This document shows positions 1 through 64,000 of a stretch of DNA of 64,000 bases, in pieces. The notes below the pieces were generated by a model. That model was not told the origin of the DNA. It searched no databases and worked only from the letters and a program-made list of their open reading frames with translations. This DNA comes from an uncultured Oscillospiraceae bacterium (lineage in GTDB: Bacteria; Bacillota; Clostridia; Oscillospirales; Oscillospiraceae). Positions within the stretch are counted from its first letter, which is position 1. Every line of letters starts with the position of its first letter. The DNA lies in assembly GCA_950075865.1 (NCBI GenBank), contig CATMVA010000002.1, positions 75,598 to 139,597 on the forward strand. Direction: 5' to 3'. The position numbers and the translations under genes are program-made.

Positions 1-72
1 GGCTCGGTGACGTCGGGCGTCTCGGGCTCGGTGACGTCGGGCGTCTCGGGCTCGGTCGTGTCGGGCACCTCA
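1..72 (-). repeat. 24-bp tandem repeats encoding TEPETPDV
   Basis: Units at 1-24 and 25-48 are identical at DNA level; the unit at 49-72 differs at a few bases (TEPEVPDT-type). A fourth decayed partial unit follows to about 90. In-frame length (8 codons) means copy number can change by slippage without breaking the frame. The array continues beyond base 1. Confidence 0.9.
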
Positions 73-160
73 GGCTCAATGGGCTCAGCCACATCGGGCA
101 GGCCGTTGGTGGCTGTACCGGCGGAGGGGCCGATGGGCGCGCCGGGCGTGGAGTCCACCA
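1..160 (-). other. Thr/Pro/Glu-rich linker leading off the left edge
   Basis: After a final beta segment (VRVYYLIGSFCVP, about 215-250) the protein becomes low-complexity: GPSAGTATNGLPDVAEPIEP, then repeats of TEPETPDV to the window edge. Such linkers usually span the peptidoglycan or connect to an anchor (SLH repeats or LPXTG signal). The anchor, if any, lies outside, so attachment is an inference. Confidence 0.75.
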
Positions 161-30100: not shown

Positions 30101-33100
30101 CGTCGGCGTTCTTGCCGTCGGACACCAGGACCACCAGCTTCATCCAAGTCTCGTAGGAGAATTCCTTGCCGCTGGTGTTGTCGGCAAACTTCTCATTGAC
30201 GAACCGGATATAGAAGTTGTTGAGCTGGTCCATGGGCACATTCTCGAACCGGATGTAGGTCTGCTCGGCCAGCTTGGTGTCGATCAGCATACCGTTGGCG
30301 TCGATCATCTCGAAGGCTACATCCATCACAGTGCCGGTCTCTGTCTCGGTGCCGTCGATAGCGATGCCGCCGGGGCCGAAGACCTTTCCGGCGCCCACCG
30401 CGGGATTGGTGGACAGGTCGGTGTAGGTGGTCAAGCCAGCGCTCTCAGTGGCCTTCCACAAGGTCACAGTATCGTCGGCCACGGTCATGACGATCCGAAG
30501 GGTGGCGGTGCCATCCTCATTCAGAGTGACGATCACCCTGTCGTCGCCCTCAGGAGCGGTGGTGCCGTACGGCGCGATGACGGTCAGGAAGGCGTTGGAC
30601 AGCCGGTTTTTGGTCGCCGAAGCAGCCGTGGCCAGGTCGCCGGGGATCACGTCCAGATCCAGGGCGCCTGAGGTGGCGAACTTGAACTCGCCGGGCTTCA
30701 GGTAGCCGTTCTCCACCAGGTAGTCCATACCACTCTGGAGGCTGGGCACGCCGGCGGCAGCCACCTTCTCGGGAGGCTGTTCGTTGGTGAGGACCTGGGC
30801 GGTACGGATACTGTCGCGGCTCTTGACGGTCACGTTGGCCGTGAGCTGGTAGCCGGTCTCCTTCTCGATGGCCACCAGGACGGCAGAGCCGATGTTGGTG
30901 CCCTGGACCCGATAAGTGGTACCGCCATTGGCGCCGGGCTGGAAGGACTCGCCGCCGGGGAAGTTCACAAACTCGACAATGACATCGTCATCACCAATGG
31001 GCGTGGGCAGCAGACCGCCGTCCTCGTCACGCTGCTGGGTGATCTTCCAAGTGTACTCGCTGCCGGGGGCGTCCTCCTCGCCGGCAATGTAGAACTTGCT
31101 GATATTCACCGTGATGGGCTGGATACCGGTGACCGGCATAACCATGTTCTCGGGGGTAATGAAGTTATCGTTGCCCCGGACCCACACGGGACGGTAGGTG
31201 AATGCCTCCTTCTCAGTGTCGCTGCCCTGCTGGGAGCCGCCAGTACCCACCTGACCGAAGGTGTTACCGCCGAAAGCAAAGACCGGACCGTAGTAAGAAC
31301 CCTGGTCGTTCTGCGCCACCAGGCCCATGGCGGTGTGACCGCCGCCGGCCGACACGGTGGTGACCCGGTAGGCCAGGTCCACCTTGGAATCAGCCGCGCC
31401 GCACACATCGCAGAGGTACCGGCCATTCTCGTCCTGGGTCAGACCCTTCAGGTCGTCGGTGGAGAAGAACTTGCCGCAGATATTGCAGCGGTAATGGTAG
31501 GTTTCGGGCGCGGCCACCTTATGGCCCTCGGGACAGATGTCAGCTCCCAGGCCGGACAGATCGTCCTTCTTGTAGTACTCATTACAGGTATCGCACTTGA
31601 CCCACCTGGTGCCATGGTCCACGGTGGTCTTATAGAGCCGGGTGGGCACGGTCCTGTTGGTGGCCTCGGGATCGCTGGTGGAGTTGTGGCCCAGACGGCC
31701 ATCCAGGCCGTTGCCCCAGGTGAACACGCTCTGATCGTCCACCAGGGCGGCCGAGAAGTTGGTACCGGTGGACAGGCTGACCACATAGGCGCTCTTGGTG
31801 CGGACCTGATGCTCCACGGTACCGGCCACTTCAGCCGGGCAGTGGGCCTCGCCCTCGGCGTCAAACACCATGCTGCTGGTGGGATACTCCCTGCCGCAGG
31901 TATCGCAGGTCCAGGTATCGGAGAATGTGAGCTCCAACGGGCGGTTGTTGACTTCCACGGTAGTCTCGTTCTTGATATCCTGCGCGGTGCGGCCCAGAGC
32001 CCCGTGACCCAGCTGGCCGTCGATATCCCGGCCCCAGCCGATGACGCTGCCGTCGTTGAGGAGGGCCAGGGAGAACCGTTCGCCGTCGTAGACCTTCAGC
32101 ACCTGCCGCATGCCTAGAATGTTGAGCTGAGCGCTGCGGGCGGCGTACTTGACCAGGGCCACCTCGGGGTGGTCCGGGCAGTGGCCGGTGCCGTGCTCGT
32201 CGAAGGTCAGGTCATCGCTCAGATATCTGATGCCGGGACAGGAAGCACAGGTCCAGTATGTGGTCTTGGTGACGACCGCATTACAGTCGGGACAGGAGGA
32301 AATCTCGATCATGGTACCGCTCTTGGTGGGCACCTGGACAAAGACCAGATCAGCTTCCTGATGATACTCGCCGCAGGCAGAGTACTGGCCGTAGCCGGAG
32401 ATATTGCTGCAGCGCCAGAAGGTGATGTCCTTATCGCCCAGGTTGGCCACCTTGGGACGGGCGTAGAACTGAGTGCCGTCGCCCAGCTGGATCTGGTTGT
32501 ACAGGTTGGAGCCCCAACCCCAGAGGGTGCCGTCGTAACGGACGGCGTGGATGGTGTTCTGGCGTCCGCCCTCGGACAGGTCGATGACCTTGCTCAGGCC
32601 GGGCACACGGGTGGGCGTGGAGTGAGTGCCGTCGTCGGTGGTGCCGTCACCCAACTGGCCGTAGCCATTGGCGCCGAAGGTGTAGACCCAGCCGTTCTCG
32701 GTGAGGACGGCCACATTGTCAACACCCAGGACCACCTTGACCACCTTCAGTTCGGGATCGTCGACGTTCCGGGGCAGGGTCACCAACAGGGGCAGGTCGG
32801 AGTAAGTGCCCTCGCCGTCGGCCATGGCGCCCTGCTGGCCCAGCTGGCCACGGACGTTGGAACCCCAGATGAAGAGCCGGCCCAGGTTGGTGCGGGCAGC
32901 AGTGTTGTGCTCGCTGGCCACCACGGAGATCACATACTCGTCATCGAGCAGCAGGCTGGTGCCTGTGGCGTCCTCAAACTTCACCTGAACGGGCACGGCG
33001 GAGTAGTAGACGTGCTGGCCTGTGGCCAGCTCATGGTCGGTGCCGGCCATGGGCACGCCTAGCTGGCCGAATGCGTTGGAGCCCCAGGTCCAGACCGTGC

Positions 33101-36100
33101 CGTCGTCCTTCAGGACCACGTTGTGCTGGCCGCCAGCCACCACCATGTGACCCACGGGCGGGATCCCAGCCGCCTCGGCCTCGGGATCGGCGGGAACCAC
33201 GTTGACGTAGTAGACCACCTTCTGATCCCGTGTGTACAGGACCACATGGGTATAGCCGTAGCTGACGCCTTCCACAGTGAAGGTGCCCTTGTGGCTGTTA
33301 TTGCCCTGCGGTGTGATCACAGAGTTGGCGGTGGTGGCGATGCCCGCGTTGATATCCTTGAGCTTGGGATCGCCGTCGTTGAGGAAGTTGGTGAACAGGT
33401 TGAAGCGCTGGCTCAGCAGGAACTCGGCCGTGGCAGTTCCGCCCACGCGGACGGTGACCACGTGCTTGCTGGAGGGCTGGCCCTTCTCGCCCACGATGAT
33501 GGGCGTATCACCCAGGGTGTCGTTCTGGTAGAGAGCGATGCTGGAAGTACCATCGTAGGTATAGTCGCCGGTACCCAGGACCTGGCCGATAGTGTCGCTC
33601 ATGACGCTGTAATGGCTGCCTGCGTCGATGTTGTAGATGATGGTGCCGGCGTCGCTGAGGTAGGTGGCATTCTCAGTACCCACACGGACCACGGGGCTGG
33701 AGTTGCTGTTGCCCAGACCCAGCTGGCCCTGCTGGTTGCCGCCCCAGGCATAGACCTCGCCCTTCAGGTTCAGCGCCAGGGAGTGGTCATAACCGGCGGA
33801 CACAGCAACGATACCGTTGTCAGAGACAGCGTTCTCCAGCCGGGCGGGTCCGCTGGTGCGCACGTCGGCGGGCATAGCCAGCTGACCGTTGGCGTTGGAG
33901 CCCCAGCCGTACACATAACCGTAGAAGGTCAGGGCCAGGCTGTGGTCCTTGCCGGCCGAGATGGCCACGGTGGTCTCGTCGTGGTCGGAACTGATGTCGC
34001 TGGGATCGCCGCCCAGCCGAACCGGGGTAGGCGTGGAGGTGATCCCGGCAGAACCGATTCCCAGGCGGTTGAAGCTGTTATCGCCGGCGGCGTAGACCAG
34101 GCCGTTCCGGGCCAGGAACAGGCTGTGCTCGTATCCAGCCGAGATGGCGGCCACCGAACGGAGGCTCATCAGGGTGGGCACGGACACGTTGTCGGTGTGG
34201 CCCAGGCCCAACTGGCCGGAGTTGTTACGGCCCCAGACATACACGGTGCCGTCCTCAGCCAGGGCCAGGGAGAACTCCTTGCCGGCCGAGACCGCCGCGA
34301 AGCGGACCTTCTTCCCGTCCTTGTCCAGCACATCAGGCACCTTCACAAAGCCGTTGACAGAGCCGGCGACAGCCGGGATACCCAGCTGGCCGTACGCGTT
34401 GCTGCCGGTGACCCAAAGGTTGCCCTCGGTATCCACAGCCAGGCTGTGATCCTCGCCGGCCGAGGCGTCCACGAACTTCACTCCCTTGATCTCACTGGTG
34501 GGATCGGTGTAGTCAATGGTGCCGCCCGCCGTCAGGACATAGGTCTTGACCATGACAGGATCGTCGGCGCCCTTAACGCCCACGATGGTGCCGTCGGTGT
34601 TGTAGTAATCCCGCAGGCCGGTACCGTCGTTGTACATGCCGATGCCCAGCTGGCCGGAGGTGTTGATACCGTAGGCCCAGATGGAGTTATCGGCACGCAG
34701 GGCCAGAGTGTGCTGGCCGCCCGTGACCGCCTTGGCCATGACTGAGGCGGCGCTGAGGACCGGGTGGTCAGCGTCGGTGGGCTTGGGCAGCAGGATGTCG
34801 CTGCCCGTCTCGCCGTCCTCATAGCTGGCGTAGTTGGAGTGGAGCTCAGCGTCGGTGATCACGTTCACAGGCAGGAACCGGAACCGGTTGCTCGTGGTCT
34901 CGGTGATCCACATGTAAGCGATGCCCGCACCGGCCGTCGTGGCCACGCCTAGGGAACCGATCCGGGCCTGGGTACTCCCCTCCTGGCAGAGCTCATCGAC
35001 CCGGAAGATGCTCCCCGCGTTATTGTAGTTGCAGCTGTATTCGTACATCCCCTCGCCGTAAGCCGAATCGGAACGGAGGGAGAATGTGCGGAAGGAAGCG
35101 TTCAGATAGTAGGTCTGGTCGTGCTCCAGGGTCAGGGCGGCGGCGCCAGCCTTCTGGACCTTGGTGGTGTCGAAGTAGTAGACGGGGTCGCTGGTGCCGG
35201 CAGGAGCAGGCTCGTAGCGTCCAGCCGTGACATTATAGATATACTGCTGCTCAGCGGGATCAACGGTCATGCCGGCCTTGATCTCCACGTACTCGCCCAG
35301 ATCGGCGGTGCCGTCGGTGATCCAGGCACCGGCGCCGTTGTCGGCGGCGGGATCCCAGGTCCCGTTCTCCCGATAACCACGGGCGAAGAAGACCTCCAGG
35401 TCGCTGTCGCCCACCAGGACCAAGTTGGCGGCGTTATCGCTGCGGCCGTTGGCAAACTGGCCCTCGCTGTTGTCGCCCAGGCCCCAGACCCGGCCGGTGG
35501 GCTCCACGTTGAACAGGTCCTCATACCCGGCAAAGATGGACTCCCACTCCTTGCCTTCGTGGATGACGACAGGCTGCTTGGCCACCTGGCCCATGTCGTT
35601 GCCGCCCAGCTGGCCCACGGTGTTCAGGCCCCAACCCAGCACGGCGTAGGTCACGGTCTCCGTCACATTGGTGGGATCGGATTCATCCTTGACCACTTTT
35701 CTGACCAGGGCAAAGGAGGTATCCTTACCCGCGGCGATGTCCACAACATCGGTCAGGTATCCGTCCCAACCGGTGCCATACTGGTTGTTGACGTCTGTCA
35801 TGACCTTCCTGGGCACATCGGAATCCGCCTGGGTCCCGATGCCAAGCTGGCCGTTGCCGTTGCTGCCGATAGACCAGACACTGCCGTTGGCGTCCCGTGC
35901 CAGGAGATGGTTCTCCCCTGTCACGATCTGGAGCAGAGGCACTTCCTCGGCTCCCATATCGCTGGGATCATCCTTGAAGCCGGTAACAGGAGTCGCCACC
36001 GAGCTGCCCGGAGTGATCTTCCAGAGCTTGCCGCCTGAGGTGCGGATATAGTGGCCGGAGATCTCAGCCGCGTTGGGCACCTGGGTGATGGCGTGAGGCG

Positions 36101-57100: not shown

Positions 57101-60100
57101 CATCGCTGGTGTGGGTCACGGTCTGGGTCACGTCGTCCACCGTCTCGACTTCCTTCAGGATCAGCATGAACCGGTCGCCCATGGCGATCTGGGTCACGCC
57201 GGTGAGGAACCCGGTGGGATCGTTCTCATCCCGCACCTGAGTGGGCACGTTGATGGTGGTCTGGTCGTAGTCGCTGCCGCTGGCCAGGAAGTCCAGAGCC
57301 CTGCCCTGCTGGCCGGTCAGCGCGTTGTGGCCCCAGGTCCACACCGTGCCGTCGGCCCGGAGGGCGGCGGTGAACGCCTCGCCGGCGATGACCACCGGCA
57401 TGGCGATAGCGCTCACATGGTTGCCCGCCATGGCATACTCGGTACCCATGTCGGCCTTGCCGAAGCCCACGGTGATCCGCGCCATCTCCTGCACGGCAGT
57501 CCCGTCCACGGTGGGCAACTCCACAATGATGTCCAGCTTCATGCCGGCCACCGCCACGTTCCAGTCGATATTGGCCGTGGCAAAGGCGGGTACGCCGTTG
57601 GCGTCGTTCTCGATAGTGAACCCGGTGATGGCGTTGGGATTGCTGGAACGGAAGCGCAGCCGCTTCTTCTGGTCGTCGGTCAGGCTGGCCCAGGCGGCCT
57701 GGATCAGCACGTTGAAGTCGTCGATCTTCTCGATGACGATCTCGTTGATATCGATACGCACAGTCTCCCGGTTGGCCTCGTTATCCACCTTCAGAAGAAT
57801 GTCGTAAGGCGCCTCGTAGGTCCGGTTCAGGATGGAGGTGGCGTCCACGATCACGTCCACCTTATTGAGCCGCAGCACGCTGGTGCTCTCCATACCGAAG
57901 CCCACCTGCTTGGGCTTCACGGTATTGGGCAGCTCATCCACATCGTAGCCCGAACCCAGCTGGCCTTGGGCGTTGTCGCCCCAGCTCCACACGGTACCGT
58001 CGGCTTTGATGGTCACCAGCGCCGTGTCAGTGAGAGCCAGGTCGTAGGAGTTCCAGGGCAGCAGCTCCTCGATGCTGCCAGGCACCACACCGGTGCGCTC
58101 GTAGCCGCTGTTGGGCGTGATCACAAAGCCGTTCGTCGCGGTGACCGTAATGGGCACGCGTCCGCCGCTTGCGTTCCGGCCGTAAAGGGTGCCGTACTGA
58201 TAGGTGGTGCCGCTGCTGCTCATGGCGGCGGACAGAGCACCGTTGGTGGCCACCTGAACGATCTTCTCATCCTTGTCCGCCACAGGCACATCCACCTCCA
58301 CCGGCCGCCTGACAAAGGTGTCGGTCACAGCCGGGGAAACTTCCTTGTTGGTGTTGTCGCCGAAGGCGAAGACCCGGTCCCGCTTCCCGTCGGCGTCAGC
58401 GTGAGTCGAAATGGTCACGATCTGATCCGCCAGGTTGCCGGCGTTCAGCTCCACCACCTGGTCCAGATACTTGCCGATGTAGTTGTCGTCCGTCTCCTCG
58501 GCCTCGGCCCGCAGGACCAGCATGGGCGTACGCTGGTAATAGCTGGCCCAGCTGGTGCCGCTGTACTGATTGTTGGCAGTCATATAGTAGAGCCACCGGC
58601 TGCCGCCCTTGTCGCTGCCGTCATAGCCCCGCTCCTGGTTGGTGTTGACCCGGTCGGTGTCGCCCAGGTCATAGCTCCAGCTCCGGGAGGTCTCATTGTA
58701 CACCGCGCCCCAGGTCATGACCTGGCCGCTGGCCAGCAGAGCGGCCGAGAAGCCCCGTCCGGCGGCGATCTGGATCACGCCGGTCAGATACTGCTCCTTG
58801 GCGTTGGCCTGGTTGTTCACCAGGCTGTCCCTCTCCACCTGGACCGGAGTGGAGTAGTAACTGCTCCGGTACCGGGTACCCAACTGCGAGGTGCTGTTGT
58901 TGCCCCAGGACCACACGTTGCCGTAGGCGTCCAGGGCCAGAGCGTGGTCATAGCCGGCGGCGATGGCCACGATGTCGTGGAGATAGGTCTCGCCCAGCTC
59001 GTTGGTCTCACTGGCGGCCTGGGTGCCCCGGAGCACCCGTACCGGGAAGAACTCATGATGGTCATGAGCCTTCCAGGCGGTGGGATTGCCGTAGCGGTCC
59101 CAGGCGATGGCCTCCCACCAGGGCGTCTTGTTCTGACCCAGGATGCCGTTGCCGTTGTAGCCCCACATCCACACGGTGCCGTCGGCGCCCAGGGCCATGG
59201 CGTAGTTGCTGCCCGCGGCGATATCCACGATATCGGTCAGGTAGCCCATACCGCCCTCGCCCCGGAGCTGCACGGGGGAGATCTCATAGTTGTTGGGGGT
59301 CTTGTTGGCGCCATAGCTGCCATAGCCCACGCTCACATCGGAATCGGTGTAGTTGTAGTTGCCGTCAGCCATCTGGCCCCAGCGGTTGTCGCCCCAGCCC
59401 CAGACCGTGCCGTCGGCCTTCAGGGCCAGGGCAAAGCCCACCCCGTCGGTGCTGGTTCCATAAGCCACCTTGGGAGAGGTGGTCCGGACCACCTGGGCCC
59501 CGTCCACCACGGGGATGACCTCCAGGCGGAAGACACGGGTAGTGTCGGTGGGAATGTGCCGCACCAAAATGGTCACGGTGCCAAAGGCCCGGCCATCGGC
59601 CGCCTTCACCAGGAACTGCCCATTGGCAGTATCCTTCTCTACCGTGGCGATGGTGGGATTGGAGGAAAGGATCTCAAAGTCATCCATGGTCCGCTGGTCC
59701 ACGCCCAGCTTTTCATAGCTGTCGTTGGGCACGCCGTAGGGCCGCACCTTGGTGGAGAAACCGGGGATCAGGAACCGCTCCAGGCTGTCCAGAGAGATGG
59801 CCACGGTGTCGCCCTCGGTCGCCACCAGCTTGCCCTCGTTGTCCAGCCGGGCAGTGGTGCCGTTGATTCTGACCGTGCTACCGCCAAGGCCGTTCTCCAC
59901 ATCCTGGAGAACCGTCTTTGTCTGTGTTCCGGTGACGGACAGCTGGCCCAGATACAGGGAGTTCTGGTCCTCGGCGCCCACCCGGACGGGGGTCTCAGCG
60001 CTGAGCAGCTTGAAGTTGCCCATGTTGCCGCCCCGGGCGGCGAACTCGCTGTCGGTGCCGCCGATGGCTCTGGCGGTGGTGGTGCCCACGCTCCAGACGC

Positions 60101-63100
60101 TGCCGTCGGTGCGGATCATGGTGGTCCGCTCCCCGGTCAGGGCCATGGTCACCGCCATGCTGAAGGCCTCTTCCCCGCCCATATGGCTGGTGATGGCGGT
60201 GGAATACTGCTCCACCGTGCCGGCGGTGCCGTCATAGTTCCGGCTCTCGCCCTGAGCCATGACGGTGTACTCGTCGGTGTCCACCGTGGTCCCGGTGGTC
60301 ACGCCGGTGCTGAACTGGCTCACCGTCTGGTTGGCGGCGCCCCAGCTGTAGATCTGGCCCTTGTCGTCGATGATAGCCGAAGCGTCGTCGCCGGCCGCCA
60401 TGGACATGATTTGGATGTCGTCGAAGGCGGACAGCCGCATGGGCTCGTTCACGATGGCGATGCCGAAGGCCGGCGTAGTCTCGGTCCCCTCCACATACTT
60501 CTGGGACTGGATCAGCTGTCCGCTGGTGTTGTCGCCCCAGCCGTAGAGATGGTTGCTGCCATCGAGAGCCAGGAAGTGGTCGTCGCCGGCCGCGATGTCC
60601 ACGATACCCTGGAGATAGTGGGTGCCGTTCTTCTGTTCGCCGTGGAGCACCTGGGTGGGATAGATCCGGCTGACGGTGGTGCCGTCGCCCAGCTGTCCCT
60701 TGTCGTTCCGGCCCCAGGCATAGACCGTGCCGTCGGCCAGCAGGGCGGCCACGGCGGTATCCGCGGTGGCCAGCTTCACCACCCGTGCGGTGCGGTTGGG
60801 GGTGGCGGTGGCGGCGGTGGCGTTGATGGCGTTGGAGCCCAGAACGGTGGCCGCCTGGCCGCTGGTGTCGCCCAGGTGGTCGGTGCCGCCGGGGCCAAGG
60901 ACCATGGTGGGCACGGTGGCGTACAGGCTGCCCGTATTGGTCCAGTCCACACCGTCATAGCGGTACACGCCGTCGCCCGCGCGCATAAATTCGGGGTTGA
61001 GAAGCTTCCGGCTGGCGATGTAGGAAGTGTTGCTGGAGTAGGAGCCCTGGTACCACCAGCTGTTATAGGCGGTCGTCATATGACCGGTGATGAAGTCCAG
61101 CCGGTCGGTATATTCCACGCCGCTCTGGATATCGCTGCTGGAGCTATAGTAGCCACCGTTGTTGCCCCAATAGTACACGTTGCCGTCCCCGGACAGGGCC
61201 ACGGCGTAGTCCCGGCCCGCGGCCAGGGAGACCGCGTTGCTGATATTGCTGACCTTTGTGGGGAAGTAGGAACCGGCGTCATTGATGCTGTAGCTCGTAA
61301 AGCCATACCCATCATGGTCATGGCAACATACATACACGTTGTTATAGGTCCCGTTGCCCAGCTCGCCGTGCTCGTTGTAGCCCCAGGCGTACACATTGCC
61401 GTCCTTGTCCATGGCATAGCTGGTGAAATCGCTGGCGGCGATGGCCACGATGTCGTGGAGGTATCCGCCGGCGGCGCCGCTGGCGCCCGAATACCAGGTG
61501 GTGCTGTCCTCGCTGCTGATGGCCCCGTGGCCGGACCGGACGCCGCTGCCCTGCGCGCCCGACACCACCTGCTGGGGTGCCGCGTAGCTCCGCTGGACAC
61601 TGTAGCCCTGCTGGTCATAGGCCCGGGTGGCGAAGTTGTAGTGGCAGGTGTCGTCCCAAACATGGCTGTGGGTCTCGTAGATCTTCACCCGGGTATTCCA
61701 GCTGTCGGCGATGCCCAGCTGTCCATACTCGTTGGAGCCCCAGGCCCACACGGTGCCGTCCTCCTTCAGGACCAGGGTGTGGTTCTTGCCCGAGACCACC
61801 ATGGGCGTGGTCACCGTGGTCCGACCGCCATCCTTGTCCACGAAGGTGGCCCGGATGTTGACCTGGAGGTCGGCCTCGGCCACCACATAGAAGGAACCCG
61901 CCACCACGCTGCCGTCAGCGTTCTTCTCGGGAGCCCAGACCTGGAAGCGGATCACGGCGGTGCCATAGTTCCGCTTGTAGCTGCCGTCGTCGTTCCTGGC
62001 CGCCTCGATGGTGAAGCTGCCGTTGCCGTTGTCGCTGACCGAAGCGATATTGGTATTCATGGAGGTGGCGGTCACATAGCCGCCATTGGCGGTATCCACC
62101 GAGCGCAGCCAGTTGCGCGGAATGATGGCGGTGCCCGTGTTCTCCACCCAGCTGTTGATATTCAGGGTCAGCTTCTGGCCCTCGGTCATGCGGATACGCC
62201 AGGCCGCGGTATCCACATCGCTCCAGTCCACAAAGCTCAGGTCGGTGCCCAGCACGTCGCCCGAGGCCCCAGCTGTACCGTACCTGCCGCCGTTCAGGAT
62301 CTCGGCGAGGGTGTAAAGGGCCGTCGGCACGGCAGGCGTCGTGTCGCTGGTATCGCCGGTGTCCCCGGTGTCGCCCTCAGTGCCCTCTCCGGGCTCCTCA
62401 GGCTGGGTCATGGGTCCAACGGTCACCACAGTGCCGTCGGCGTTAGTCAGCTCTGCGCTGTCGATCCAGGCGTAGCTCTGATACCGGTAACCGGCCATCA
62501 CGGGGGTGGATGCCGTCACATTGTTGTTCTGATAGCCCGAGGTCTGGGTCACCATACCCAGCTGGCCATAGGTATCGTCGCCCCAGGCCAGCACGTAGCC
62601 GTACTCCTGGCGGGCGTCCTTGGAGGTCAGGTTGCCCACGTTCAGCAGAGCGGCGGCATGGGTGTAGCCGGCCGTAATGATCTTCACGTCGGTGAGATAG
62701 CCGCTCGTCTCGGTCTGCTTGTAGCCCGAGGTGATGTCCTTGTCGGGAGCGGTGCTGGTGGTGCCGTCCCAATCGGGATCGGCGGTCTCACCCGCCTTCA
62801 CGAAGATGGGCAGGGTGTGCTTATCCTGGTCCACCGTGCCCTCACCCAGCTGGCCGAAGTGGTTCCGGCCCCAGGACAGGACCCGCTGGTCGCTGGTGAT
62901 GGCCAGGGTGTAGCCCTCGCCGGCCTCCACCCGCTCCAGGGTAGGCATCTGGTGGTTGGTGTTCTCCATATCGCCCAGGTTCACATCGGGGCTGGTGGAT
63001 TCCTTCACCCGCATGGGCATCAGGGCCCGCTCCAGGGTGCCGTTACCGATGCCCAGCTGGCCATAGGCGTTGGAACCCCAGGCGTAGATCTCCTGCTTGT

Positions 63101-64000
63101 TGTTGTCGTCGGTACGAGTACGGATGGCCACCATGTGGTCCACACCCACCGCCACGTTGGTGATCAGGTTCAGGTTGCTGCCACCGTCAGCGTTGTAGCT
63201 GGCGCCCCGCATGACGGTGACGGGCAGGGGAGCGTCCTTCCGGGAGTTCTGGCCCAACTGGCCCTCGGCATTGGAACCGAAGACCCACAGGTCACTGTTG
63301 CCCAGCACCACAGCGGACACATTGCCGCCGGCGGCGATGAGCAGGGCGCCGGACAGGTAGCCCTGGCCCAGCTCGCCCTTGACCTGCTCGGGCGTGGTGT
63401 GGAGGTACAGGTTGGCGTTCTTCTTCTCCACATTGGTCCAGTGGGCGTCGCTGATGGCGGTGCCCAGCTGGCCGTTGTAGTTGGAGCCCCAGGCCCACAC
63501 CGTACCGTCGTCGGCCAGAGCCAGGGTATGGCTGGCGCCGGCGGCGATGGCCACGATGTTGGTCAGGTACTGGTATCTCTGGAGCTTACCGGTGCACATG
63601 GTGTTGGCGGTCACCTTTTCACAGGTCTTGCCCACCTCGCCAGTGCGGTAGTGGGTACCGCACCGGTCGCAGATGTAAGTCTCCTGGGTGCCGGCCAGAA
63701 CATGGACGGCGTAGGTCTTGTTGGTCCGGTCGCCCACGCCCAGCTGGCCGCTGTCGTTGCGGCCCCAGGCGTACACGTCGCCGTCCAGGCTCAGGGCCAC
63801 GGCGTGATCGGTACCGGCGGCCACCGCCTTGAAGCGGATCTGCTCGGTGGTGTTGATAGCTCCGTCGGTGTCCCGGACGGTGCCCAGATAGTCTCCGTTG
63901 GCGTCCAGCACCCGCTGGGGATTGGGGGTGGATTTGGAGCCGTAGATGTTGTTGGTAGCCGAGCCCACATAGCCGATGGATCCGGCCACGTTGGCGGCCG
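1..64000 (-). CDS. Giant modular surface protein (RCC1 propellers, Ig/BIG2, zinc-ribbon, cadherin-like, dockerin-like), partial at both ends
   Basis: One frame stays open across the entire window (codons with lowest base divisible by 3; complete codons 3-63,998, about 21,332 residues). The register is identical at the right edge (WGRNDSGQLG at about 63,740-63,767), mid-window and left edge (TEPETPDV repeats at 1-72), so no frameshift separates them. Domain order N to C: 17 RCC1-like propellers separated by Ig-like domains (64,000 to about 31,170), a long tandem array of cadherin-like beta-sandwiches (about 31,170 to 870), a dockerin-like calcium loop (about 620-670) and a Thr/Pro-rich linker (1-160). 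Both termini lie outside, so signal peptide and anchor cannot be seen. RCC1 propellers in bacteria (for example BLIP-II) are protein-binding scaffolds; BIG2 and cadherin-like domains are extracellular stalk modules. I infer a secreted or wall-attached adhesin-like fibre. No enzymatic domain was recognised. The coding call is very secure; the function is inference. Confidence 0.96.
411..683 (-). other. Dockerin-like/EF-hand calcium segment
   Basis: First loop at 630-665 reads DANGDGVVDDWD: Asp1, Asn3, Asp5, Gly6, Val8 and Asp12, a textbook dockerin/EF-hand loop, followed by KDFGDLATKY as the usual helix. A second, degenerate loop DANGDKIYTPNAG lies at about 420-460, with Lys in place of the invariant Gly. 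The spacing between loops (about 70 residues) is longer than in classical type I dockerins, so cohesin binding is uncertain; it may only be a calcium-stabilised cap. Confidence 0.65.
870..4159 (-). repeat. Cadherin-like/Ig-like array, block E
   Basis: The last 1,090 residues of the array, acidic and irregular, with domain cores ILTDLGVKNSAHLNETFDPP (about 3,275-3,335), ALDMILHSGATHDES (about 2,155-2,205) and AKLLDLWTTDTEESD (about 1,690-1,745). Final strands are YHLTVYYTDGP, YTIHMERTPYD and VYVITVYRH. It contains the acidic hairpin run at 2,842-2,940. Just before the dockerin-like segment comes a prealbumin-like strand pair, GTYMVVVHTPGYLDYVE (about 745-795). Confidence 0.75.
2842..2940 (-). 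repeat. Acidic D-x-x-G-x-P hairpin repeats
   Basis: Three tandem acidic turns in about 30 residues: DADGNPVPKK, DDDGNPMFD and DENGDPIYETET. Related single copies appear at about 3,790-3,850 (DENGQPIVD) and about 2,535-2,575 (DNNGDPMVD). This kind of hairpin is common in low-complexity joints of large bacterial surface proteins; a role in calcium binding is possible but unproven. Confidence 0.6.
4160..8299 (-). repeat. Cadherin-like array, block D: ten consecutive domains
   Basis: Boundaries near 7,905, 7,465, 7,000, 6,620, 6,090, 5,725, 5,270, 4,910 and 4,545. The best family matches are 6,620-7,000 (LLEDLKFSEPTVPAFDPEV, YFVSVPS, GENLVTVTM, VYIVELNRGDQD), 4,910-5,270 (LEQITVSEGTMS, YYVTVPWDVTELDITAYA, YTLVIDR) and 5,725-6,090 (YYFVQVPYEVTSV, FYTVVINR). 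These reproduce the PF12733 order of a 'L..l.vS.G.l.p.F', 'Y.v.VP..v..v.v.A' and 'Y.v.i.R' core. Other domains in the block are longer (150-175 residues) with extra loops. Confidence 0.88.
10040..10170 (-). other. Short helical segment in block C
   Basis: FLDEMEAYYKNNRQGYYEAL followed by KATEDAKNLMAQLEV: about 45 residues of predicted helix inside a beta-sandwich domain that begins LDDLNAYTEDF (about 10,285-10,315). Confidence 0.6.
12567..12606 (-). other. Acidic calcium-loop-like motif in block C
   Basis: Reads TVDLDGDGTADDHLPAQ. The DxDxDGxxDD core matches EF-hand/TSP3-like calcium loops in its first nine positions, without the closing acidic residue at position 12. In a cadherin-like array it could rigidify an inter-domain joint. 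Confidence 0.45.
14530..14715 (-). other. Helical segment in block C
   Basis: LAAAQARYDKMADDARRAIL, then TAEAQAAYDSLLMTDAEKAL: about 60 residues of amphipathic helix within the beta-sandwich array, probably a helical hairpin between strands or a short spacer. Confidence 0.65.
18900..22469 (-). repeat. Cadherin-like array, block B: ten consecutive domains
   Basis: Ten domains can be delimited by their start phrases, with boundaries near 22,170, 21,790, 21,450, 21,155, 20,715, 20,285, 19,890, 19,550 and 19,240 (mean about 119 residues). Starts include LGLESLTVNGKSV, LKSLSLNLGQ, ILQEVRLNEV, LKSLEVRSGV and LQSVTVNK. Ends include YLEIIRVND, YTVTIHLVN and YDLVILRGV. The domain at 20,285-20,714 shows the family pattern best: AYVDESVNSVTVNLTATYF, then TDRDATYYLEIIR. 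Such domains form rigid extracellular stalks; no binding residues are evident. Confidence 0.85.
22470..31169 (-). repeat. Cadherin-like/Ig-like beta-sandwich array, block A
   Basis: About 2,900 residues of beta-rich sequence without RCC1 motifs. Repeated elements are a start phrase like 'LxxIxV', a middle like 'YTAxVpxxvtxvtV.A' and an end like 'YtVxIxR/YVVxL', as in cadherin-like beta-sandwich domains (PF12733). Examples: VSYVVVLKDVSLDV (about 27,900-27,945), DITRDYDINISYADSG-type strands (about 27,820-27,870), GTEAVYYIYLMRQDASVTID (about 23,960-24,020), and EQVIHVGVTTDTRNTV (about 23,830-23,880). Individual boundaries are irregular near 29,000-31,100, where the sequence departs from the plain repeat. 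A helical segment lies at 29,560-29,830. Confidence 0.78.
29560..29830 (-). other. Short coiled-coil segment in block A
   Basis: About 85 residues of Ala/Glu/Gln/Leu-rich helix between beta-sandwich modules: AGQKANEAHLTGAQSEANLY, then ERNRLYALLQAAEADLAVQK and AKVDAAYAKLHQAYYEVRN. Composition and leucine spacing resemble the propeller 12 insertion. Confidence 0.78.
31380..31625 (-). other. Tandem zinc knuckles, blades 6/7 of propeller 17
   Basis: First unit WVKCDTCNEYYKKDDLSG with ADICPEGHK; second unit YRCNICGKFFSTDDLKG with YLCDVCGAAD. Each begins CxxC and ends with CPxGH or CxxC, and both share the phrase [YF]..DDL.GL, so they are direct duplicates. The second is a canonical C-x2-C...C-x2-C zinc ribbon. 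Confidence 0.78.
31800..31925 (-). other. Partial zinc knuckle, blades 5/6 of propeller 17
   Basis: WTCDTCGREYPTSSMVF, then EGEAHCPAEV: C-x2-C with a third ligand pair H-C about 20 residues on; no fourth Cys. It could use the His, or be a decayed copy of its neighbours. Confidence 0.55.
32170..32412 (-). other. Double zinc-knuckle insertion, blades 4/5 of propeller 17
   Basis: Contains CSNISGYGQYSAC (about 32,376-32,415), then SSCPDCNAVVTKTTYWTC followed by ASCPG and GHCPDH. At least two CxxC pairs nine residues apart plus a third CP.H motif make a zinc-ribbon arrangement of the kind C-x2-C-x9-C-x2-C. Metal binding is inferred. Confidence 0.7.
33175..33549 (-). other. Ig-like separator 16
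   Basis: About 125 residues: HVVTVRVGGTATAEFLLSQR, then INAGIATTANSVITPQGNN and GYTHVVLYTRDQKVVYYV. The strand order and the 'V..GgTat..F' start resemble BIG2-type domains. Precedes the entry blade VGHMVVAGGQHNVVL. Confidence 0.68.
33550..34759 (-). other. RCC1 propeller 16
   Basis: Cores at 34,650-34,685 (YGINTSGQLG, entry), 34,390-34,415 (TGSNAYGQLG), 34,215-34,240 (WGRNNSGQLG), 34,075-34,105 (AGDNSFNRLG), 33,880-33,910 (WGSNANGQLA), 33,720-33,755 (WGGNQQGQLG) and 33,555-33,590 (TGDYTYDGTSS, degenerate). Each blade begins with the strand pattern SAGxxHSLAL. A compact propeller of about 400 residues. Confidence 0.91.
34760..35449 (-). other. Atypical separator 15
   Basis: About 230 residues, twice the usual separator length, rich in Tyr, Thr and Gly (EQQYIYNVTAGRYEP, TYYLNASFRTFSLR, IAYMWITETTSNRF) with two isolated cysteines (about 35,015-35,035 and 34,990-34,997). 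Beta-rich, but without a BIG2 phrase. Family not recognised. Confidence 0.5.
35450..36554 (-). other. RCC1 propeller 15
   Basis: Cores at 36,455-36,480 (WGSNDRGQLG, entry), 36,290-36,315 (FGDNNFGRLS), 36,110-36,135 (ACGREYTAP), 36,015-36,035 (LWKITPGSS, degenerate), 35,850-35,880 (IGSNGNGQLG), 35,605-35,640 (WGLNTVGQLG) and 35,465-35,500 (LGDNSEGQFA). Same blade pattern as propeller 14 (third blade 'YACG', fourth blade truncated). Confidence 0.88.
36555..36864 (-). other. Ig/BIG2-like separator 14
   Basis: About 105 residues with VWTVESADPTIFTVDDSSGR (about 36,650-36,715), a BIG2-type phrase, then GVSAGKAMLKVLVDG. Followed by the entry blade TRPMIAVGKDHILAL. Confidence 0.8.
36865..38129 (-). 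other. RCC1 propeller 14
   Basis: Cores at 38,025-38,050 (WGVNNRGQLG, entry), 37,820-37,890 (WGSNSYVRT with an insert before SGQLG), 37,655-37,685 (ACGINES), 37,530-37,550 (WNLPNNITS, degenerate), 37,305-37,340 (AGNNTYGQLG), 37,075-37,100 (WGSNETGRIG) and 36,890-36,920 (TGANGYGQLG). Seven blades. The pair 'YACG..' followed by a short 'W..' blade recurs in propeller 15, so the two propellers share a recent ancestor. Confidence 0.88.
38130..38719 (-). other. Ig-like separator 13 (atypical)
   Basis: About 195 residues, acidic, with strands such as SAVLTYHTLDGDLLTLPTS, TRLIVKYDPEGV and KVKVGVAIVDVLG, then a Gly/Ser/Glu linker (TPGDEGGAGDSTPSES, about 38,150-38,200). Lacks the BIG2 sNPsvAtV phrase; it could be two diverged Ig-like units. 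Precedes the entry blade TVPQVASGDGFTVAL. Confidence 0.55.
38720..40064 (-). other. RCC1 propeller 13
   Basis: Cores at 39,940-39,995 (WGDNTF with KLGTG after a short insert, entry), 39,745-39,775 (WGDNTYGQLG), 39,575-39,605 (WGDNTYGQLG), 39,405-39,430 (VGSNEDGQLG), 39,195-39,220 (WGSNADSQLG), 38,930-38,960 (WGTNEDYKAG) and 38,745-38,775 (WGNNEYGQLG). Blades 2 and 3 have an identical core, VVYAWGDNTYGQLG, with almost the same DNA, so one is probably a recent copy. Confidence 0.91.
40065..40394 (-). other. Ig/BIG2-like separator 12
   Basis: Contains TWKSLDPSVATVTADENN (about 40,180-40,235), then REGETKVVAQNSITGQ, both typical BIG2 strands. Ends just before the entry blade TYPQLSLGEYHSTAL. Confidence 0.83.
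40395..42774 (-). other. RCC1 propeller 12, split by a coiled-coil insertion
   Basis: Cores at 42,655-42,690 (WGSNSANQIN, entry), 42,500-42,535 (WGRYEKGSLG), 42,300-42,330 (WGDNLGQKLG), 42,145-42,180 (AGQTGKGLT), 41,890-41,915 (MGLSNRNNL), then after the helical insertion 40,595-40,625 (WGVSKNTDS) and 40,410-40,445 (WGKNDVGQLG). Seven blades in total, so the long helix pair appears to have been inserted into the loop between blades 5 and 6 without altering the count. Confidence 0.83.
40740..41860 (-). other. Long coiled-coil/helical insertion in propeller 12
   Basis: About 370 residues, almost free of beta-type sequence and rich in Ala, Glu, Lys, Gln and Asp with heptad-like spacing: AAITDLTAQLNAAEDALKGA (about 41,640-41,700), RVAEYRGKLTQVRENRDMKE (about 41,385-41,445), ADAELAVTAAQSDLTAAEAD (about 41,190-41,250) and ERNRAENARETARTARDRLD (about 41,020-41,080). 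Several alternating runs suggest two or more antiparallel helices, that is a stalk projecting from one face of the propeller. This is the longest helical block in the window. Confidence 0.85.
42775..43129 (-). other. Ig/BIG2-like separator 11
   Basis: Clear BIG2 phrase RFASTNPNVVSVDEEGNLYY (about 42,870-42,935) followed by EGVGTAVIVVYEK. Precedes the entry blade VAPEVAAGSAFSAAL of propeller 12. Confidence 0.83.
43130..44634 (-). other. RCC1 propeller 11
   Basis: Cores at 44,510-44,550 (WGRNNYGVLG, entry), 44,185-44,220 (WGRNNHGQLG), 43,945-43,980 (WGTGNDPQV), about 43,740-43,765 (YALTEQGAKISW, degenerate), about 43,590-43,600 (VYERIPG, degenerate), 43,440-43,465 (KGKNQSGEQG) and 43,150-43,185 (WGDNTYGQLG). 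Seven blades if the two degenerate ones are accepted. An insert of about 85 residues separates blades 1 and 2. Confidence 0.8.
44635..44999 (-). other. Ig/BIG2-like separator 10
   Basis: Very clear BIG2 signature: TYQSLDPSVATVDGSGVIAG (about 44,755-44,815), then NRGNTTILVTVSKG. Followed by the joint LTPYTYRNEF and the entry blade AFAQVSVGEDYTLAL. Confidence 0.85.
45000..46369 (-). other. RCC1 propeller 10
   Basis: Cores at 46,245-46,285 (WGSNEYGELG, entry), 46,075-46,105 (WGRNDKGQLG), 45,800-45,835 (VGDNESRQLT), 45,635-45,670 (MGDNRTLAMG), 45,445-45,475 (WGENDNNING), 45,205-45,240 (LGLNSQGQLG) and 45,075-45,100 (MGAANMEQVG). Between blades 2 and 3 there is an acidic calcium-loop-like stretch (see 45,851-45,890) where other propellers carry zinc knuckles. 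Confidence 0.86.
45851..45890 (-). other. Acidic EF/TSP3-like loop in propeller 10
   Basis: Reads LDTDNDGRVDEYKTL. Asp at positions 1, 3, 5 and Gly at 6 fit a calcium loop of the DxDxDG type seen in thrombospondin type-3 and dockerin repeats, but position 12 is Lys instead of Asp or Glu. Calcium binding is possible, not proven. Confidence 0.45.
46370..46794 (-). other. Ig-like separator 9
   Basis: Beta-rich segment of about 140 residues: YTISIAEGEDFQYTIQP, NNIAQVDYHDDKF and GLSAGTTYMIVSLAKD resemble BIG2 strands in order. It precedes entry blade GFPQVVSGSSFNVAL of propeller 10. Confidence 0.68.
46795..48369 (-). other. RCC1 propeller 9
   Basis: Cores at 48,250-48,285 (WGSNTYGQLG, entry), 48,080-48,115 (WGSNARNELG), 47,840-47,870 (WGDNYNGLVD), 47,650-47,685 (WGELRNYAYG), 47,515-47,545 (WGGTEETRYA), 47,255-47,285 (MGNADADQS) and 46,810-46,850 (YGQNSDYGRLG). 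The WG pair is kept in most blades, but blades 3-6 have lost GQLG. A zinc-ribbon-like knuckle lies between blades 6 and 7. Confidence 0.85.
47115..47202 (-). other. Zinc-ribbon-like knuckle 6 (between blades 6 and 7 of propeller 9)
   Basis: YICNTCNTLYTSGTAGAAC then AASGCSGML: C-x2-C-x12-C-x4-C. The compact spacing and the Y..SG..G..C core match knuckles 1 and 3. It sits in the same 6/7 slot as knuckle 4. Confidence 0.72.
48370..48704 (-). other. Ig/BIG2-like separator 8
   Basis: Contains SIVSTNPAAAEVDDNPAS (about 48,505-48,560), a variant of the BIG2 'snPsvA.Vd' phrase, and TGFTYIVITDDMGNQG near 48,430-48,480. Ends with a joint rich in Ala, Thr and Pro before the entry blade VFPEISVGLAHSVAL. 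Similar in its final strand to separator 7 (GFFKLNV in both), which suggests recent module duplication. Confidence 0.75.
48705..48800 (-). other. Zinc-ribbon-like knuckle 5 (after blade 7 of propeller 8)
   Basis: LVCDTCRTAFGDDGSLNVGD then PCAAGTGCGGHI: C-x2-C-x15-C-x5-C. It joins propeller 8 to its Ig-like separator. The usual Gly after the second Cys is Arg here. Confidence 0.68.
48800..50249 (-). other. RCC1 propeller 8
   Basis: Cores at 50,130-50,170 (WGSNENGRLG, entry), 49,955-49,985 (WGDNAHGQLG), 49,765-49,800 (MGSFAYGKLD), 49,600-49,640 (IGKNASTNGG), 49,420-49,455 (WGANQYGQLG), 49,135-49,165 (AGQNLRGQLG) and 48,945-48,980 (WGTNTYGQLG). The seven-blade count is clear. A zinc-ribbon-like knuckle directly follows blade 7. 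Confidence 0.9.
50250..50639 (-). other. Ig/BIG2-like separator 7
   Basis: Begins with a short amphipathic stretch, then carries the BIG2-like phrase SYKSLDPEVADIAISADGKT (about 50,370-50,430) followed by FGVTYIVAEYTADDG. Ends in LPEKAGDTPSI just before entry blade TYPQVAMGDKFSVVL. Confidence 0.75.
50805..50910 (-). other. Zinc-ribbon-like knuckle 4 (between blades 6 and 7 of propeller 7)
   Basis: YNCSVCGAIYTAEEYNDAAN continues to HECTKTKDCKGKIL: C-x2-C-x18-C-x5-C. It lies in a different blade gap from knuckles 1-3, with a longer second spacer. Confidence 0.7.
51852..51951 (-). other. Zinc-ribbon-like knuckle 3 (between blades 2 and 3 of propeller 7)
   Basis: LVCDACGKLYTTGNVGDSC then TLTSCEYL: C-x2-C-x12-C-x11-C. 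Same slot and nearly the same first half (C-D-x-C-G, TTG, G, C) as knuckles 1 and 2, so these three are probably duplicates of one ancestral insertion. Confidence 0.72.
52350..52984 (-). other. Unusual inter-propeller insert with helical segment
   Basis: Occupies the place where a BIG2-like separator normally lies, but differs. Its first third (about 52,775-52,975) is predicted helical (AFIRLAEEIQEILAEEP, then SSQILAELFAPAIF). The rest is beta-like (LTLTGDQIFVVDKNTVYR), then a His-rich stretch MEHRHTDDEK before the next entry blade ATPMVAAGKSFSAAL. I do not recognise the family. Confidence 0.55.
52985..54004 (-). other. RCC1 propeller 6 (degenerate centre)
   Basis: Clear cores at 53,890-53,925 (WGDNSQGQLG, entry), 53,725-53,750 (WGAPYH), 53,380-53,405 (MGGNSYGQLG), 53,210-53,240 (WGRNTSGQLG) and 53,010-53,045 (TGSNAAWQMG). 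Between 53,575 and 53,660 two short strand-like remnants (VYAGGSAYR, QVYTPSGSG) may be blades 3 and 4, giving seven. At about 340 residues it is the shortest propeller; it may be six-bladed or partly WD40-like in the middle (SPDGSRIAYLANG). Confidence 0.72.
54005..54384 (-). other. Ig-like separator 5
   Basis: Beta-rich segment of about 125 residues ending with a BIG-like final strand (ITPLKDAVGVAVITVTDR, about 54,090-54,145), then the Pro/Glu-rich joint KPYDEQPNAGDTPETY before entry blade TQPMLVAGDGFAVAL. The central part lacks the sNPsvAtV phrase, so the family is less certain. Confidence 0.6.
54385..55721 (-). other. RCC1 propeller 5
   Basis: Seven cores at 55,620-55,660 (WGDGANGMLG, entry), 55,445-55,475 (WGYNEDGQLG), 55,130-55,165 (WGNNEYGQVG), 54,915-54,945 (WGDNDYGQLG), 54,735-54,770 (MGYNYYGRLG), 54,560-54,595 (WGGNANGQLA) and 54,410-54,440 (AGSNREGQLG). 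All seven are well preserved, which makes this the cleanest example of the repeat plan. A zinc-ribbon-like knuckle lies between blades 2 and 3. Confidence 0.93.
55260..55383 (-). other. Zinc-ribbon-like knuckle 2 (between blades 2 and 3 of propeller 5)
   Basis: YVCDVCGESYTTMPESGRC followed by a fourth Cys in ITVCGGHL: C-x2-C-x12-C-x18-C. The first half matches knuckle 1 in spacing and position within the propeller. The longer last spacer carries an acidic insertion. Zinc binding is inferred. Confidence 0.7.
55722..56109 (-). other. Ig/BIG2-like separator 4
   Basis: Beta-rich, about 130 residues, with the BIG2 hallmark VVAVSAEGVVTPHEGATG (about 55,830-55,885) followed by TSTILVRR. Directly precedes the entry blade YAPVVAAGDGFTLAL. 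Confidence 0.8.
56110..57419 (-). other. RCC1 propeller 4
   Basis: Blade cores at 57,300-57,340 (WGHNALTGQQG, entry), 57,067-57,100 (WGYNADGQLG), 56,840-56,870 (WGSTADGRN), 56,685-56,715 (LGDNSLGQLG), 56,515-56,545 (WGSYQGADK), about 56,385-56,400 (VYAQLDVDG, degenerate) and 56,190-56,225 (YGQDDYGQLG). About 437 residues, close to the size of a single RCC1 propeller. Confidence 0.87.
57420..57929 (-). other. Ig-like separator 3
   Basis: About 170 residues, beta-rich with a short amphipathic helix (ASLTDDQKKRLRF). Contains the BIG-like phrase RFRSSNPNAITGFTIEND near 57,610-57,670. It precedes the entry blade AMPVVIAGEAFTAAL of propeller 4. More diverged than separators 2, 4 and 10. Confidence 0.6.
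57930..59499 (-). other. RCC1 propeller 3
   Basis: Blade cores at 59,370-59,405 (WGDNRWGQM, entry blade), 59,140-59,170 (WGYNGNGILG), 58,879-58,915 (WGNNSTSQLG), 58,700-58,725 (TWGAVYNE, degenerate), 58,340-58,375 (FGDNTNKE), 58,180-58,205 (QYGTLYGRN) and 57,955-57,990 (WGDNAQGQLG). Blades 4-6 have lost most of the GQLG half but keep the preceding hydrophobic strand and Gly pattern, so the seven count rests partly on degenerate blades. Confidence 0.83.
59500..59954 (-). other. Ig/BIG2-like separator 2
   Basis: Beta-rich segment with a clear BIG2 hallmark, SSNPTIATVEKDTANG (about 59,620-59,670), followed by FGTVTILVRH. In BIG2 domains the 'snPsvAtV..dG' strand and a final Thr/Val strand are diagnostic. 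It sits between blade 7 of propeller 2 and the entry blade of propeller 3. Confidence 0.8.
59955..61814 (-). other. RCC1 propeller 2 (with long inter-blade inserts)
   Basis: Entry blade PMVVSGKNHTLVL..DGTVWAWG, core 61,712-61,741. Further cores at 61,356-61,385 (WGYNEHGELG), 61,141-61,175 (YYWGNNGG, degenerate), 60,687-60,717 (WGRNDKGQLG), 60,515-60,547 (WGDNTSGQL), 60,315-60,355 (SWGAANQ) and 60,060-60,110 (WSVGTTTARAIGG, degenerate). Inserts between blades 1 and 2 and between 3 and 4 make this propeller longer than average. A further weak core (VLGSN near 60,830) could make the count eight instead of seven. Confidence 0.82.
61815..62439 (-). other. Ig/BIG2-like separator 1 with GDT-rich linker
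   Basis: Begins after blade 7 of propeller 1 with an acidic Gly/Asp/Thr linker (62,325-62,409) holding three GDT-type units (GDTGDTGDTSD). Beta-rich sequence follows, with a BIG2-like stretch NTNIASVSDNGNGSF at about 62,020-62,070 and a strand GTAVIRFQVW. It ends directly before the entry blade of propeller 2 (TTPMVVSGKNHTLVL). Confidence 0.65.
62440..64000 (-). other. RCC1 propeller 1 (right-edge, first blade partial)
   Basis: Residues about 1-520 of the fragment. Blade cores seen at about 63,911-63,956 (degenerate, NNIYGSKSTP, possibly completed outside the window), 63,738-63,767 (WGRNDSGQLG), 63,462-63,491 (WGSNYNGQLG), 63,252-63,283 (FGSNAEGQLG), 63,052-63,080 (WGSNAYGQLG), 62,845-62,874 (WGRNHFGQLG) and 62,559-62,588 (WGDDTYGQLG). 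Each core is preceded by the usual RCC1 strand pattern IAAGxxHxxAL..DGxVY. A four-Cys knuckle sits between blades 2 and 3. Seven blades agree with the RCC1 fold; whether blade 1 is complete needs upstream sequence. Confidence 0.9.
63582..63683 (-). other. Zinc-ribbon-like knuckle 1 (between blades 2 and 3 of propeller 1)
   Basis: Reads YICDRCGTHYRTGEVGKTC and ends NTMCTGKL: spacing C-x2-C-x12-C-x8-C. Four cysteines in this arrangement, with Gly after the second Cys, resemble a rubredoxin-like or zinc-ribbon fold that would bind one metal ion. It interrupts the loop linking two RCC1 blades. Metal binding is inferred from spacing only. Confidence 0.75.

Follow-up and report, generated by a model that had tools for sequence, protein, structure and literature searches.

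Propellers of the RCC1, UVR8 and HERC kind, and that of BLIP-II, come one to three to a protein. Surface proteins of bee-gut Bifidobacterium carry two to four RCC1 domains (PMC4449606), and the giant open reading frames (ORFs) of the Omnitrophota run to 39,678 amino acids (aa) in Velamenicoccus archaeovorus LiM (PMC10066038) and up to 85,800 aa (PMC12057145), as stated in the parts of these three papers that are drawn on here and below. The subject of the present account is a stretch of 64,000 nucleotides ("the window"; C2:75598-139597 in the coordinates of its contig) from the 2.29-Mb draft genome of an uncultured Oscillospiraceae bacterium. The entire window is spanned by a single minus-strand frame, part of the gene for a giant protein about two thirds of which is an array of RCC1 modules in an order that is conserved among relatives. 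A sequence-only reading of the window had seen seventeen tandem RCC1 propellers in it: seventeen groups are indeed there (modules 18-34, with module 18 cut by the right edge), but the protein has 34, and the number seventeen is an effect of the window.

The RCC1 array and its separators

The giant frame starts with an ATG at C2:174173, to the right of the window, and is still open where it runs into a 100-N scaffold gap at C2:75498-75597, directly left of window base 1; it comprises at least 32,858 codons, and its certain part weighs 3.53 MDa. The layout is that of an N-terminus which, judged by eye, resembles a Gram-positive signal peptide (the protein is probably secreted), a conserved N-terminal region, the RCC1 array at aa 606-22,471, and a C-terminal region of ~10,400 aa. 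This is followed by a linker that is acidic or rich in Pro and Glu and by an end piece with a calcium-loop motif, the latter visible in the own protein only past the gap. Seventeen further modules of the array lie beyond the right edge of the window; in the other direction, the frame runs for 10,387 aa from the array leftwards to the gap.

That RCC1 repeats occupy the region throughout, as the sequence-only reading had it, is borne out: all 131 matches to PF00415 found in this genome at an expectation value (E) <=0.001 (216 candidates, 150 scored) lie within the giant frame; the Pfam families RCC1, RCC1_2 and WD40_RLD match every piece of the array; and PF25390 exceeds its cut-off in all RCC1 pieces, which places them in the RCC1-like beta-propeller family. 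An iterated blade hidden Markov model (HMM), trained on 37 PF00415 matches, scores above 0 bits at 204 places, and those that are clear span aa 606 to 22,471. A matrix for the tryptophan-containing blade core scores no higher than 7.3 bits in five shuffles of the whole protein; 190 real cores score at least 8 bits, and none of these falls in the C-terminal ~10,000 aa. These shuffles, together with the random-boundary control described below, rule out chance matches as the source of the blades. (A technical note: a matrix for the half-blade AAGxxHSLAL is unspecific when used alone, shuffles scoring 8.3-12.3 bits with it, and it was left out of blade counting for that reason.)

Ahead of the first blade of each module lies a stretch of ~115 aa, the 34 copies of which align mutually. 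An HMM trained on these copies matches them by construction; above 8 bits it also finds 27, 28, 25, 31, 23 and 31 separators, respectively, in the giants of six relatives designated G077, G014, G116, G430, G424 and G427. Ten separators scanned singly yield Pfam Big_2 in three and a pilus N-terminal model in two (E<=0.05; the best Big_2 match is at 3.5e-7), and the whole-protein scan puts Big_2 over its cut-off once and the pilus N-terminal model once. Searched against the PDB, a profile of the ten has matches among bacterial surface chains, intimin included: entries of the teneurin-like, flagellin hook IN-motif, surface-protein and intimin kinds appear at E 1e-7 to 6e-5. On these profile matches, a divergent Big_2-like immunoglobulin (Ig) domain precedes each propeller, and the Ig-like separators of the sequence-only reading have held up.

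How many blades make up a propeller? The 34 groups were delimited by hand, from core spacing and separator positions, and groups 18-34 lie in the window. For the final count the 34 boundaries were mapped onto the six other giants (monotonically in 6/6), and a core was counted if it scored above 0 bits with the blade HMM or at least 6 with the matrix. The features of the window, with these counts, are listed here; "own" refers to the genome analysed, and the propeller numbers in brackets are those of the sequence-only reading, counted from left to right, propeller n being module 35 minus n.

3..63998 (-): part of the giant ORF, aa 11,527-32,858 of at least 32,858 (ORF scan)
62472..64000 (-): RCC1 module 18, cut by the window edge (propeller 17); seven cores in 7/7 giants
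59952..61811 (-): RCC1 module 19 (propeller 16); own six cores, best orthologue seven
57864..59465 (-): RCC1 module 20; own six cores, best orthologue six
56136..57404 (-): RCC1 module 21; own five cores, best orthologue six
54297..55718 (-): RCC1 module 22 (propeller 13, the example chosen by the sequence-only reading), predicted closed seven-bladed propeller (AlphaFold and Foldseek); seven cores in 7/7 giants
52959..53990 (-): RCC1 module 23, degenerate; own four cores, best orthologue seven
50676..52337 (-): RCC1 module 24; seven cores in 7/7 giants
48882..50234 (-): RCC1 module 25; own six cores, best orthologue seven
46707..48353 (-): RCC1 module 26, with the most non-core invariants of the 34 modules (129); own six cores, best orthologue six
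45039..46346 (-): RCC1 module 27 (propeller 8); own seven cores
44604..44945 (-): Ig-like (Big_2) separator before module 28, the clearest one; Big_2 E 3.5e-7, 30.5 bits against a cut-off of 22.8
43110..44606 (-): RCC1 module 28; own four cores, best orthologue six
40371..42758 (-): RCC1 module 29, with an internal stretch of ~500 aa without detected blades; own five cores, best orthologue six
38673..40058 (-): RCC1 module 30 (propeller 5); seven cores in 6/7 giants, own included
36732..38117 (-): RCC1 module 31; own five cores, best orthologue six
35400..36545 (-): RCC1 module 32; five cores in 7/7 giants
33507..34742 (-): RCC1 module 33; own six cores, best orthologue seven
31164..33155 (-): RCC1 module 34, the final one of the array; seven cores in 7/7 giants
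1..31163 (-): C-terminal ~10,400 aa without RCC1, with scattered PF12733 cadherin-like beta-sandwiches and a Glu/Pro/Thr-rich tail running into the gap (Pfam and iterated profile)

Over the 238 module instances (34 modules in seven giants), seven cores are found in 122, eight in one, six in 58, five in 41 and one to four in 16; 115 instances thus lie below seven, and they count against a uniform seven-bladed design. When the best of the seven giants is taken for each module, 22 modules have seven cores, one has eight, ten have six and one has five. The sequence-only reading, admitting degenerate blades, had put seven in every interval that it examined and about 119 in the window's array: 100 of the nominal 119 cores are detected (module 18 being counted with its part outside the window), with exactly seven in 6/17 own modules and four to six in the other 11. 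At least one of the seven giants reaches seven cores in 10 of these 17 modules; the best orthologue has five or six in the remaining 7. The propellers that had been called cleanest (5, 8, 13, 16 and 17, that is, modules 30, 27, 22, 19 and 18) have seven, seven, seven, six and seven cores. An earlier count with three orthologues, from which the cores of neighbouring modules were excluded, gave seven in 18/34 modules and three to six in the others.

Because the module boundaries were hand-drawn, cores were recounted without them, simply between consecutive separators that score above 8 bits in the six relatives, whose sequences had played no part in training the separator HMM. Seven cores are found in 67 of the 157 intervals (42.7%), eight in one, two to six in 70, nine or ten in none, and 11-36 in 19; with random boundaries just 5.8% of intervals hold seven. 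The 19 long intervals are as expected of a missed separator. The upper limit of seven cores is sharp, as a closed ring of seven blades would lead one to expect, and the shortfall below it we infer to be made up by blades beneath detection. Ahead of the first core, a half-blade scores at least 8 in 24/34 own modules and at least 4 in 29/34 (in the C-terminal region 0/200 sites reach 4); our own reading of this half-blade is that it would provide the "velcro" closure of the ring.

Structure models cover modules 22 and 23 of the 34. AlphaFold's model of the pair (957 aa, from a nine-row alignment of window modules) has a mean predicted local distance difference test score (pLDDT) of 56.6 and a predicted template modelling (TM) score of 0.45; the strands of module 22, mostly at pLDDT 70-88, form seven triads. 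In a Foldseek search the top match of the pair model is UVR8 (4dnw_A; E 2.3e-30, TM score 0.88 by target and 0.35 by the two-module query, over 467 columns), and HERC2, RPGR, RCC1 and BLIP-II follow. Module 22, whose match to UVR8 spans a whole propeller, is predicted to form a closed one, which is what the sequence-only reading had expected of structure prediction for the interval 54,385-55,721. The separator between the two modules is at pLDDT about 19-36. Module 23 is another matter: modelled alone (from 16 rows; pLDDT 62.7) it has five clear triads, low-confidence stretches and a TM score to UVR8 of 0.56-0.57, as against about seven triads in the pair model.

The models of this degenerate module therefore disagree, and the claim of closed seven-bladed propellers rather than a solenoid is supported for the clean modules, by the stop at seven, the half-blade and the model of module 22. 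One might instead suppose that the propellers are of mixed blade number, or partly open. The 115 short module instances and the 70 short intervals are what such a mixture would give, as are the five clear blades of module 23 modelled by itself and the five cores that module 32 shows in every giant; yet a mixture does not explain why counts end at seven (1/238 above it, and not one interval of nine or ten), nor does it sit well with the closed ring modelled for module 22, and we regard it as rather improbable.

Two kinds of insert in the array were also noted. CxxC-rich inserts occur over own aa 3318-22,389 (window 31,400-63,700 and beyond) and by eye resemble small metal-binding knuckles: the giant has 19 CxxC motifs, 90 of its 106 cysteines lie between aa 606 and 22,600, and the relatives have 2-24 CxxC per frame or piece. 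Module 15, which lies beyond the window, has in its first blade (own aa 9341-9606; L016) an insert that looks by eye like a BspA-type leucine-rich stretch.

Module order among relatives

The order of the modules was tested by cutting each giant into 400-aa windows and comparing best hits. Any pair of the seven giants gives collinear best hits, with rank correlations of 0.95-1.00 and a median identity of 31-50% (the poorest pair has hits for 84/102 windows). Within one giant, by contrast, the rank correlation of best hits is -0.05 to 0.30, at 29-32% identity. Over the N-terminus and array (aa 1 to about 22,800), each of the 57 own windows has an orthologue as its best-scoring partner, ahead of every paralogue in the chain itself. 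As orthologues are collinear and own paralogues unordered, the 34 modules must be old, each position a lineage of its own: by these alignments the modules are positional orthologues across two genera. A recent tandem amplification is ruled out on the same grounds, own modules being ~30% identical in no order where orthologues are collinear.

Seven-way alignments contain invariant residues at 1640/4852 core positions, 559/5215 loop positions and 1105/11,972 others. The non-core invariants are unevenly distributed, from 26 to 129 per module (with the maximum in module 26), which is compatible with module-specific sites, although the shorter divergence of the orthologues confounds it. Because the order is fixed and the modules have invariant residues of their own, the alignments suggest that the heads are not interchangeable and that each may have its own job.

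How far does the giant reach? A contig scan with the own N-terminal sequence alone detected no relative; a profile of seven N-termini finds ten loci. PF25390 matches at E<=1e-10 in 36/150 genomes of the family, and among the matches listed frames of more than 5,000 aa occur only in the genome analysed (G000), G014, G116 and G077. At the level of the order, 33/295 genomes have a match at E<=1e-45, and among the matches listed no frame exceeds 2,052 aa besides those of G000 and G077. Within the genus, an alignment of the N-terminal part (A4) has a match in 10/16 genomes, and its N-terminal, non-RCC1 half in 8.

Could the giant be an artefact, of repeats collapsed or expanded in a draft assembly, or of a frame that is open merely through GC-rich (guanine- and cytosine-rich) composition? 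It does border a scaffold gap, a long frame is also open on the opposite strand (10,117 aa), and the frames of G014 and G116 each contain one in-frame stop. Set against this are uninterrupted frames in five other genomes (G077, 40,694 aa; G436, 39,571; G424, 37,716; G430, 34,110; and G427, 32,702), G430 being a one-contig genome, and the 34 boundaries mapping in order in G077, G430, G424 and G427, with GC at 53% to 67% in the stretches fetched; modules only ~30% identical to one another also make collapsed repeats unlikely. We give the idea of an artefact hardly any credence.

The in-frame stops are at C1:158206-158208 in G014 (L052) and at C2:67427-67429 in G116 (L039), and the contig of G116 carries many single Ns. 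The antisense frame occupies window 42,627-63,998 on the plus strand for 7,124 aa before continuing beyond the window; it most likely results from GC-rich codon use. On the minus strand, the only other ORF of at least 150 aa within the window has 195 aa.

The C-terminal region and the neighbouring genes

After the array RCC1 gives way to scattered cadherin-like beta-sandwiches. Eleven pieces compared with Pfam (E<=0.01) give no match in eight, PF12733 in two and a sub-threshold FlgD_ig in one; a profile iterated from two seeds finds 27 stretches above 8 bits in the own giant, though that profile may have drifted. Beyond the scaffold gap the sequence continues in a different frame, Glu/Pro-rich and ending in a calcium-loop (dockerin-like) motif which, by eye, resembles the C-termini of the relatives; this piece and the giant frame ahead of the gap were kept separate. 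The piece, an open stretch of 126 aa left of the gap (L012:15118-15495, minus strand), runs from a Glu/Pro-rich repeat to the motif at its end, and its sole Pfam match is a sub-threshold phage decoration protein. A component of a cellulosome was considered and ruled out, there being no Cohesin in 4/4 genomes and no Dockerin_1 in the giants. At E<=0.01 the giant gives no match to Flg_new.

Downstream on the same strand are genes for proteins of 1721, 3223 (SLH, Big_2), 5055 and 5445 (SLH) aa. These very large minus-strand proteins cluster at C2:22777-74929 (L010-L012), left of the window, and between them lies an 1881-aa frame, 1568 aa of which were searched against Pfam and gave no match. The 1721-aa neighbour has a match in 7/16 genomes of the genus and lies beside the giant in G427, G430, G424 and G116. 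On the upstream side come a MacB/FtsX permease and an ABC ATPase, followed by a binding protein, PF02578 and SecA. The genes for SecA, PF02578 and SBP_bac_5 (C2:182685-188214, L018) likewise lie close to the giant in G430, G077 and G116, and they are together in G429 and G426, both without the giant's N-terminal region; the place of this trio seems to be old, and the giant to come and go. SecA is on another contig than the giant in G427, G424 and G014. A dedicated second SecA is ruled out, with one SecA match in each of nine genomes.

Function, and likeness to known systems

What might such a chain do? The layout and the conservation of order argue, with somewhat better than even confidence on our part, for a secreted, envelope-associated, multivalent extracellular binding filament of Oscillospiraceae; multivalent binding by the propeller array, which the sequence-only reading had proposed, would be plausible. 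The chain would be exported via Sec, and its C-terminal part would attach it to the envelope, possibly aided by the neighbouring SLH proteins. It would form a filament some hundreds of nanometres long (an estimate from domain sizes), in which each propeller could serve as an individual head that binds proteins or glycans, the Ig domains hinges, and the beta-sandwich region a stalk.

Several findings, beyond the short blade counts already given, weigh against such a filament. Attachment is on the shakiest ground: in none of six relatives do the last 300 aa contain a terminal LPxTG-like motif (a single internal LPDSG occurs in G077), and no LPxTG sorting signal was seen by eye in the own post-gap piece; the Pfam scan gives no SLH domain in the giant or in that piece; Cohesin (PF00963) has a match in 0/4 genomes; and every Dockerin_1 (PF00404) match falls outside the giants. 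With none of these signals present, the anchor is only a guess. G014 has the giant but gave no match for the 1721-aa neighbour, and in G433 that neighbour occurs without the giant. The giant's N-terminal region is absent from 8/16 genomes of the genus; either the giant is dispensable, or it is missing from draft assemblies. And loop conservation is confounded with the orthologues' shorter divergence.

Would something simpler than ligand binding do? The propellers might be bulky filler, spacing out a surface layer in a passive exoskeleton or coat, with no ligands of their own. A giant ORF of Velamenicoccus has been proposed to build a coat (PMC10066038), SLH proteins adjoin the present gene, and several of the propellers are degenerate; filler, however, should hardly need a module order that stays fixed over 31-50% identity, or the 26 to 129 non-core invariants, compatible with a coat though these are, and we consider this account unlikely. 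Size class and extracellular role also bring to mind the adhesins, or weapons against other microbes in predation or antagonism, that have been proposed for the giants of Omnitrophota. A weapon fits poorly with the lack of any Pfam enzyme or toxin domain above cut-off in any piece of the giant, and poorly with named relatives that are Oscillospiraceae and other Clostridia. To our knowledge these include no predatory group. Predation or antagonism accordingly seems to us distinctly improbable.

One can take the binding filament a step further, and here we can be no more than tentative: the giant may act as a rack on which an invariable set of distinct partners is held, in one set spatial order, by 34 propellers that each have a conserved binding surface of their own. 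If that were true, it would exceed in length every ordered propeller chain known to us, and be an external scaffold in which order itself, beyond composition, is under selection. Bacterial giants have mostly been described, in the sources drawn on here, as poor in recognisable domains and in conservation, which makes their function hard to study. In the present case two thirds of the chain is recognisable, the order is conserved, and a whole gene is available in a complete-genome record (AP025582.1), so that some questions become testable: why build a protein of at least 3.5 MDa, how is it exported, and do 34 heads have separate partners?

The architecture had been called possibly undescribed. 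A literature search, mostly with broad terms and with preprints outside its scope, found no description of a giant RCC1 chain, and the main text of PMC11573180, on huge proteins, does not mention RCC1; surface proteins with a few RCC1 domains are, however, known from Bifidobacterium. With the scaffoldins and dockerin proteins of cellulosomes the giant shares the huge, modular, secreted chain and, by eye, the C-terminal calcium-loop motif, and it differs from them in the Cohesin and Dockerin_1 searches described above. A single module is like the propellers of RCC1, UVR8, HERC and BLIP-II in fold and sequence; those, unlike the giant, belong to intracellular or small secreted proteins. The Omnitrophota giants share its size class and putative extracellular role, but they are of another lineage and are mostly described, in the parts of those papers cited at the outset, as poorly conserved and with few annotated domains, whereas this giant is two-thirds RCC1 and conserved in order. 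The closest known kind is that of the bee-gut Bifidobacterium proteins (PMC4449606, in the part drawn on): these too are predicted surface proteins with tandem RCC1 domains of about seven repeats and a small domain before each. There the domains number two to four, the small domain is Flg_new, the anchor is LPxTG and positional orthology is generally lacking; here no LPxTG was found, a Big_2-like domain precedes each of 34 modules, and positional orthology is strict.

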